This document shows, piece by piece, positions 62,384 through 63,568 of a stretch of 64,000 bases of DNA. How positions within the stretch are numbered: position 1 is the stretch's first letter; every line of letters begins with the position of its first letter. The notes beneath the pieces are model-generated. The model was given only the letters and a program-made list of their open reading frames with translations. It did not search any database and was not told where the DNA came from. A program made the translations under genes and the position numbers. This stretch comes from Natronoarchaeum philippinense (GTDB taxonomy: Archaea > Halobacteriota > Halobacteria > Halobacteriales > Natronoarchaeaceae), in the NCBI RefSeq assembly GCF_900215575.1, contig NZ_OBEJ01000001.1, positions 620,001 through 684,000 on the forward strand, given 5' to 3'.

Positions 62384-62866
62384 CTACCGCCGGCGGACCA
62401 GATCACTGAGCTTGCTCGCCAGCCCGGCGTCGTCACCGAGTTTGAGGTAGTAGGCGTCGCCGCCGTCCTCGTAGTAGGTGTCGATGCGGCGCTTGATCTC
62501 GAACCCGAGCGACTCGTAGAACTGCAAAGCGTTGTCGTTGGTCGCCCGAGCGTGACAGGTGACCGAATCGTGCTCGTCGGCCACGGTGGCGACGAGCCGT
62601 TTGCCAAAGCCCTCGCCGCGGTAGGCCGGATCGACCGCGAGAAACAGGATGTACCCGTCGCGGCGCACCGCCGCGAAGCCGGCGAGGTTGTCGTCGGCGT
62701 CGACGAGCAGGTGGACCGTCGAGCGGCGGTAGGCGTCCGCGAAGAAGCCGTGGCGCTGTTTGAGTACGCCCTCGGCGCCGCGGATCGTCTCTTTGAGTTC
62801 CCAGGCATCGTCCAGCCGCTCGTCGCTGCCCGGGCCGACGACGCGCGTTTCGACGTTGACGCTCAC
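62384..62866 (-). CDS. GNAT N-acetyltransferase
   Basis: 160 residues starting with GTG at 62864-62866. The start is decided by the TATA box 62890-62898, 28 bases upstream; a longer ATG version would include the box. The acetyl-CoA loop is VDPAYRGEGFGKRLVATVAD (R/Q-x-x-G-x-G/A), followed by CHARATNDNALQFYESLGFE. It acetylates an amine, perhaps a protein N-terminus or small molecule; substrate unknown. Convergent with the GRAM gene. Confidence 0.85.
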   Translation of the reverse strand: MSVNVETRVVGPGSDERLDDAWELKETIRGAEGVLKQRHGFFADAYRRSTVHLLVDADDNLAGFAAVRRDGYILFLAVDPAYRGEGFGKRLVATVADEHDSVTCHARATNDNALQFYESLGFEIKRRIDTYYEDGGDAYYLKLGDDAGLASKLSDLVRRR

Positions 62867-62889: not shown

Positions 62890-62898
62890 AATATAATT
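62890..62898 (-). promoter_or_regulatory. TATA box deciding the GTG start of the acetyltransferase
   Basis: AATTATATT on the minus strand, 28 bases before GTG 62866. It sits just before the tandem repeat. Confidence 0.65.
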
Positions 62899-62899
62899 C

Positions 62900-63070
62900 C
62901 ACCGGCAAACTCGTTTCACTCGTTTGCCGAGCCTCGCGTCACTTCGTTCCGCGAGACACCGGCAAGCTCACCGTGTTCGCTTGCCAAGCGCTGCGTCGCT
63001 TCGCTCGGCAACACACCGGCGGGCTCGCTTCACTCGCCCGCCGAGCACTACCTCGCTTCGCTCGGTAGTA
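62900..63070. repeat. Three 57-base tandem repeats with co-varying hairpins
   Basis: Units start at 62900, 62957 and 63014 with CACCGGC, and a degenerate fourth at 63071 with CACCGAC: exact 57-base period. Each unit has hairpin 1: GGCAAAC/GTTTGCC (62904-62910/62922-62928), GGCAAGC/GCTTGCC (62961-62967/62979-62985) and GGCGGGC/GCCCGCC (63018-63024/63036-63042). The stems change but pairing is kept. A second hairpin is clear in unit 1 (CTCGCG/CGCGAG) and unit 3 (CTACC/GGTAG), weak in unit 2. It lies between the acetyltransferase and archease genes. Confidence 0.75.
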
Positions 63071-63157
63071 CACCGACGAACTCTCCGCTCGCCCCGCCGT
63101 CGCGAGCGCCGCGACGAACCGACCCATTGACGGTTGCCACCGTCGTCGTCCCGAGTA

Positions 63158-63568
63158 GTGAGCTACGAGTTGCGCGAACACACGGCCGATGTCGCCATCG
63201 AAGCCGAAGGGCCGTCGTTCGACGCCGTCGTCGGGGCCGTCGCCGACGGGTTGGCGGCCGCGATGTGCGACGACGTGCCCGCGGAGGGCGAGCGCTTCGA
63301 CGTGCGCGTCGACGCCGAAAGTCGGGAGGCACTGCTCTTTGATTACCTCGACGAACTGATCTACGAGCGCGACGTGCGCGGCGTCCTGCCGGTCGACAAC
63401 GACGTGGAAGTGACGGAACGGGACGACGAGTTCAGTCTGGCAGGCTCGGCCCGCGGCGTTCCGCTGTCGGCGGTGTCGGCCCGCGAGATCAAGGCCGTCA
63501 CCTACTCCGAGATGGAGGTCGCGGAAACGGCCGACGGCTGGCGCGCGTACGTCGTCTTCGACGTTTGA
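63158..63568 (+). CDS. Archease
   Basis: 136 residues from GTG 63158 (SYELREHTADVAIEAEGPSF). FDAVVGAVADGLAAAMCDD, FDYLDELIYERDVRGVLPVD and REIKAVTYSEMEVAETADGW match the archease family, including the Asp ligands for Ca/Mg. Archease activates the RNA ligase RtcB in tRNA splicing and repair. The rtcB gene is not in this window. The divergent neighbour is the acetyltransferase, with the tandem repeat between. Confidence 0.87.
   Translation: MSYELREHTADVAIEAEGPSFDAVVGAVADGLAAAMCDDVPAEGERFDVRVDAESREALLFDYLDELIYERDVRGVLPVDNDVEVTERDDEFSLAGSARGVPLSAVSAREIKAVTYSEMEVAETADGWRAYVVFDV

Follow-up and report, generated by a model that had tools for sequence, protein, structure and literature searches.

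A tandem array of a probable palindromic insertion element, with stems that change while staying paired, between the GNAT acetyltransferase and archease genes of Natronoarchaeum philippinense

The intergenic region between a GNAT-family acetyltransferase gene and an archease gene of Natronoarchaeum philippinense contains three tandem 57-nt units and a decayed fourth. Each unit is made of two hairpins, hairpin A and hairpin B, and the pair is hereinafter designated AB. We interpret the feature, with a probability of about 0.7, as a tandem array of a haloarchaea-wide, non-coding, non-autonomous palindromic insertion element. Specifically, the structure of AB, its covariation, its distribution, its precise presence or absence at defined sites and its tandem arrays are all observed, and together describe a discrete insert. 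The window, namely the whole 64-kb stretch of DNA (64,000 nucleotides) that was analysed, is haloarchaeal and has a G+C content of 66%.

The GNAT-family gene (Pfam Acetyltransf_7/1) occupies 62384..62866 on the minus strand, with its start codon inferred from conservation, and the archease gene (Pfam Archease, 2.5e-33) occupies 63158..63568 on the plus strand, also with an inferred start codon. Upstream of the GNAT gene, a conserved minus-strand block at 62890..62904 combines a TATA-like sequence with CCGGTGG, and is probably the promoter of that gene. The array adjoins and partly overlaps this block. Consistent with the first-pass annotation, which described a 57-base repeat of exact period, the three units start at 62900, 62957 and 63014. 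The AB elements within them all lie on the minus strand at 62902..62957 (A1 62931-62957, B1 62902-62930), 62959..63014 (A2 62988-63014, B2 62959-62987) and 63016..63071 (A3 63045-63071, B3 63016-63044). Covariance model R3 scores them at 79.9, 69.7 and 80.4 bits, respectively, and model R1 matches both hairpins of every unit. The decayed fourth unit (63071..63101, boundary approximate, minus strand) is identical to the other units at 19-22 of 57 positions. Its start, CACCGACGAACTC, and a loop-like CTCTCCGCTCG are still discernible, while the stem pairing is lost and the hairpin scan misses it.

Units 1-3 are pairwise identical at 38-40 of 57 positions, which is why Tandem Repeats Finder does not report the array, and 31 columns are the same in all three. 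Only 1 of 20,000 random window triples matches this 31-column identity, and that one may be the array itself. In a strict scan (stem of at least 6), five of the six array hairpins pass and no other hairpin in the 64-kb window does; first-order Markov copies of the whole window give 0.43 such hairpins on average, with a maximum of 2. The outer stem of hairpin A2 has one C/C mismatch. Folding of the minus strand of the array has a z score of -5.1. In the frame that the in-gene copies use, units 1 and 3 are interrupted by stop codons, and the pairing of the array is hence not explicable by coding. Exact counts of the loop motif are uninformative inside the window, the backward control being the same word, and covariance models were used instead.

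The fold is most readily interpreted on the minus strand. On this strand the hairpins follow the plan stem-GA-NN-GNA-NN-GA-stem, in which the two NN are complementary, and the 11-nt GA-NN-GNA-NN-GA forms a cap that is usually carried by both A and B. Hairpin A has the form GTCnnnnn-loop-nnnnnGGC and contains a near-fixed T.G pair (62 of 67 scorable rows). Hairpin B, TCGnnnnnn-loop-nnnnnnCGGTG, follows directly after A, and some B hairpins carry a short loop instead of the cap. The GA/GA and triloop positions of the cap are nearly fixed, which bears out the earlier observation that the loops are better conserved than the stems. That observation had been made for one hairpin per unit; the hairpin is present, but there are two per unit, the minus strand is the better reading of the fold, and the inner 2-bp pair covaries as well. 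Of 210 hairpins gathered across many genomes, 176 have GAA, GGA, GCA or GTA as the triloop, and G-C/C-G or A-T/C-G predominate at the inner pairs; the loci were largely selected by model, and the figures thus describe the family rather than test the cap. A control model with GA changed to AG, keeping the same stems and composition, matches 1 of 145 haloarchaeal genomes, versus 133 of 145 for the true single-hairpin model.

The cap is reminiscent of a known DNA fold. The d(GCGAAGC) mini-hairpin is exceptionally stable, and tandem GA motifs form sheared pairs. The commonest AB cap contains GCGAAGC flanked by GA/GA. Solved structures of the GCGAAGC mini-hairpin, 1KR8 and 1PQT, have been listed (PMC5430850). 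In contrast to that mini-hairpin, the inner pairs of AB vary with compensation and its triloop is GNA, indicating a constraint on shape and not on one sequence.

The stems and the inner 2-bp pairs covary, with 98% of cells paired, a value matched by 0 of 500 shuffles. The paired changes AAA/TTT, AAG/CTT and GGG/CCC reported by the first-pass annotation are present. Specifically, in the nine hairpins of the window and the sister species, all 10 pairs vary on both sides and 97.8% of cells are paired, compared with 62% after shuffling and 27-30% when partners are slid by one column. The window and sister arrays differ at 17 stem sites; six pairs carry changes on both sides, each of them remaining paired, where scattered changes would give an expected 1.6 (P = 2e-4). 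In an alignment of 69 distinct elements that span many genera, the paired fraction is 98% of cells and double-sided changes number 264 compared with 58 in shuffles; the alignment was fitted to the structure and is hence biased towards it. A search for a general strand bias of G.T wobbles found it to be essentially confined to the fixed T.G position. Maintenance of pairing, which the annotation had proposed from the array alone, the paired changes being hard to attribute to chance, is thus strongly supported within the array, between two species and across the 69 elements. Copies elsewhere stay paired, the opposite of the loss of pairing that the annotation had named as counter-evidence.

A and B recur elsewhere in the same order and with the same spacing. 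Of 292 haloarchaeal genomes, 264 have an AB match to model R3, as do 72 of 76 genera, in a survey that scored few candidates per genome and gives copy numbers as floors. A draw of 197 genomes from the whole phylum includes 29 positives, all in the order of the window's own genome; about 164 of the genomes drawn belong to other classes, and none of these is positive. Every named match in plasmid records is haloarchaeal, including Halobacterium salinarum pNRC200, and a search of phage records yielded no AB. The sister genome has at least six near-identical dispersed copies, several of them within a longer repeat, and tandem AB arrays also occur at three further loci (L177, L182 and L120). Three haloarchaeal genomes (G022, G029 and G133) have neither hairpin nor AB matches; G022 and G029 are rich in TnpB, with 35 and 34 matches. 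Searches of the open-access literature for the loop motif, haloarchaeal REP or MITE elements and in-frame palindromes found no description of AB.

Comparison of related loci reveals sites with and without AB. The array is also present in the sister species, at the same position between the GNAT and archease genes. In the genera g2 and g3 of the family, in Haladaptatus, in Halovenus and in others, the gene pair is kept with a short spacer and no array, and most of the array-less loci of other genera retain the block AATATAATTCCACCGG. The other counter-evidence named by the annotation, unrelated sequence without repeats in relatives of the same gene order, is not borne out by the sister, which keeps the repeat, although more distant genera that have this gene order lack it. 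In the third unit of the sister array (L028), a hybrid hairpin joins the 5' arm of A3 to the 3' arm of B3 at the loop, and it seems as if recombination removed the segment between two caps.

AB is found outside genes, as in the array, and in frame inside unrelated genes (PurO, FixB and an epimerase tail). An insert of 51 in-frame nucleotides, TCCTCGCGAGCGGAGCGAGTGAGGGCTCGTCAGAGCGCAGCTCTGACGGTG, separates GGGCG from TCGTCGG in the purO gene of the window's genome. This site is empty in the sister and in six other genomes of the family, and solved PurO structures align on both flanks with a gap at the insert. A decayed insert is present at the same point in the PurO of genome G004. A duplicated epimerase tail (L144, L146 and L192) occurs with or without exactly 57 nt, in frame, with the junctions GGCA|TCTCGG when empty and GGCA[TC...GGTG]TCTCGG when filled, and the AB lies at the same point in two haloarchaeal families. 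At these three loci (~1300-1600), part of the 3' end of an epimerase gene is repeated after the gene, and this partial duplicate bears AB. FixB in L196 has 19 extra residues where the 4kpu chain is contiguous. The AB peptide is also seen in CbiC (L159) and in two histidine-kinase tails of the sister (L100 and L104; B only), which are weaker proof of insertion. The two insertion points resolved to the base, in PurO and the epimerase tail, are both next to TC and fit either targeting of TC or a 2-3-nt duplication. At the outer end of the window array, the next bases are GA, not TC.

These data suggest a mechanism in which units of 51-57 nt insert into intergenic DNA and, in frame, into genes. 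A putative trans-acting enzyme would recognise a folded single strand during movement, more likely of DNA than of RNA. Because the folded strand and not its sequence would be recognised, the stems would be free to change only if still paired. What distinguishes the strand may be its T.G pairs together with the asymmetric cap. Speculatively, each AB end re-creates a ..GGTG/TC.. junction resembling those at both resolved targets, so that further copies could insert in tandem; alternatively, the array could have arisen by slippage or unequal crossing-over. Insertion at the GNAT-archease locus may have been assisted by homology, because the ancestral CCGGTG at that locus already resembles the end of B. 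Any host role here, for example as a boundary between two divergent promoters, would be secondary to insertion. Several points bear against or complicate this reading. The analysis observed neither a transposition event nor a circular intermediate, nor an enzyme. The pairing seems to have been kept after insertion at the GNAT-archease locus, which a dead insertion would not need. Moreover, some insertions at one site are common to different genera (PurO in G000 and G004) or to two families (the epimerase tail), and vertical inheritance with loss, or lateral transfer, could therefore mimic movement.

Several other explanations can account for part of these observations. Chance hairpins would be favoured by the high G+C content, and the window holds 75 overlapping records of perfect 8-bp hairpins; the shuffles, the slid partners, the cap control and the compensation between orthologous arrays exclude this explanation, and we consider it refuted. 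Pairing could instead be a mutational by-product, in which one arm is rewritten from the other, by template switching at quasi-palindromes or by gene conversion between copies, without selection. In hairpin B1, neighbouring pairs that went from AA/TT to GG/CC do resemble single templated events, and many related AB copies are present in these genomes. However, such copying leaves unexplained the near-fixed cap and the near-absence of the cap-swapped hairpin, and templated correction would remove the fixed T.G pairs. We therefore regard it as rather improbable, though the most credible of the alternatives.

The hairpins might also be RNA elements (terminators, or processing or stability signals) selected as RNA, with the cap a haloarchaeal counterpart of stable tetraloops and the array a regulatory leader or insulator. 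Consistent with this, the G.T pairs are mostly the fixed T.G on the GA strand, CTTTTT follows some single hairpins, and in Haloferax hairpins precede some 3' ends and one such hairpin terminated transcription in vivo (PMC7237163). Nevertheless, the array lies upstream of the TATA-like block, outside the GNAT transcript, and precise inserts of 51-57 nt in coding sequence are unexpected for a fixed RNA gene, which is why DNA is favoured over RNA. A search of Rfam 15 found no family, the best hit (E = 0.25) lying outside the array. Selection as RNA is thus unlikely. Finally, AB could represent the fused ends of an IS200/IS605-type element, as in a PATE or RAYT/REP system, mobilised by TnpA. PATEs of Haloquadratum provide a precedent, since they have near-terminal palindromes, no terminal inverted repeats or target duplications, and lengths down to 52 bp (PMC3119063). 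Y1 transposases (PF01797) are, however, absent from four of the nine family genomes that still carry hairpins, no capped hairpin is found in eight Y1 loci, and none with a stem of at least 6 is found in 96 kb around 30 TnpB genes. Because the TnpA and TnpB loci lack AB hairpins, the suggestion in the first-pass annotation of a RAYT-type transposase is unsupported; a RAYT/REP or IS605-end origin is rejected as far as tested, and we hold it to be very unlikely. With respect to a MITE, whose terminal inverted repeats match a transposase element, no inverted repeat joins the two ends of AB in the alignment, the search for a parent element having covered TnpA and TnpB.

By analogy, AB may work like Rickettsia palindromic elements (RPEs), REPINs or PATEs. 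RPEs are short palindromes that occur both outside genes and, keeping the frame, within unrelated protein genes, where they are tolerated as an extra peptide (PMC10969869), and AB likewise occurs in both settings. RPEs are ~150 bp long and bacterial, whereas AB is 48-57 nt and haloarchaeal, with two hairpins, a conserved cap and freely covarying stems. AB is thus not an RPE, being set apart, by description, by its length and its restriction, within the phylum, to haloarchaea, and homology between the two is not expected. REPs and REPINs are paired short dispersed hairpins, sometimes in ordered tandem clusters, in which compensatory hairpin changes have been noted (PMC3116915), all features shared by AB. 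REPs depend on a RAYT and form an inverted pair whose sequence is conserved, whereas A and B are dissimilar and in direct order, with variable stems and no link to RAYT. The nearest haloarchaeal description is that of the PATE and SMR elements of Haloquadratum walsbyi, which, like AB, are short, palindromic and transposase-free, with lengths down to 52-110 bp (PMC3119063). PATEs are tied to IS605 ends and SMR-A is ~110 bp with terminal inverted repeats, whereas AB hairpins are absent around tnpA and tnpB; on a comparison by description, some PATE or SMR elements could overlap with AB. PARCELs resemble AB in being tandem palindromic repeats that can be translated (PMC2996958). They differ in that they encode 25-residue amphipathic repeats within ORFs of other taxa, while AB is mainly intergenic and its arrays contain stop codons.

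If the insertion reading is correct, AB has persisted as an insertion element throughout an entire archaeal class even though its stems keep changing in sequence, and this turnover makes ordinary sequence repeat searches miss it. It would give the in-gene palindromes, described chiefly in Rickettsia, a counterpart in archaea, would account for acidic SEDERSESSG-like stretches in some haloarchaeal proteins, and would make it testable which haloarchaeal enzyme reads DNA shape. A broader proposal, which we put forward as tentative, is that AB belongs to a shape-defined pan-haloarchaeal insertion class whose single strand is mobilised by a putative cap-reading haloarchaeal enzyme, that the cap recurs at tRNA-end inverted repeats and terminator-like sites, and that the acidic frame has repeatedly added Ser/Glu-rich segments to proteins. 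Covariance models R1 and R3 serve for annotating AB and hairpin sites.

The cap is also seen in other contexts. At six loci of the window's own genome (L045, L050, L058, L129, L130 and L131) and three of the sister (L106, L108 and L117), a tRNA T-arm is present as an inverted copy that surrounds a capped hairpin (GGGATTTGAACC..hairpin..GGTTCAAATCCC). A tRNA-like 3' end comes next at some of the loci, and the arrangement looks like an integration (att) site or a tRNA-end repeat. Capped hairpins occur in pairs, separated by CTTTTT..GTTTTT (or ATTTTT) and accompanied by an outer palindrome, at L039, L043, L054 and L062 of the own genome and at L112, L113, L118 and L126 of the sister; their sequence appears terminator-like. 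In the sister genome G001, a dispersed repeat of ~250-300 bp (L094-L099, L105, L107, L109 and L111) encloses AB and a third capped hairpin, TATCC..GGATA; both lie within a long stem, and covariation between copies extends to the arms of that stem. In pNRC200 of Halobacterium salinarum (L209, ~2430-2550), compared with L211, the loop of hairpin A is apparently interrupted by another hairpin-bearing segment, and it seems as if one element landed inside another.
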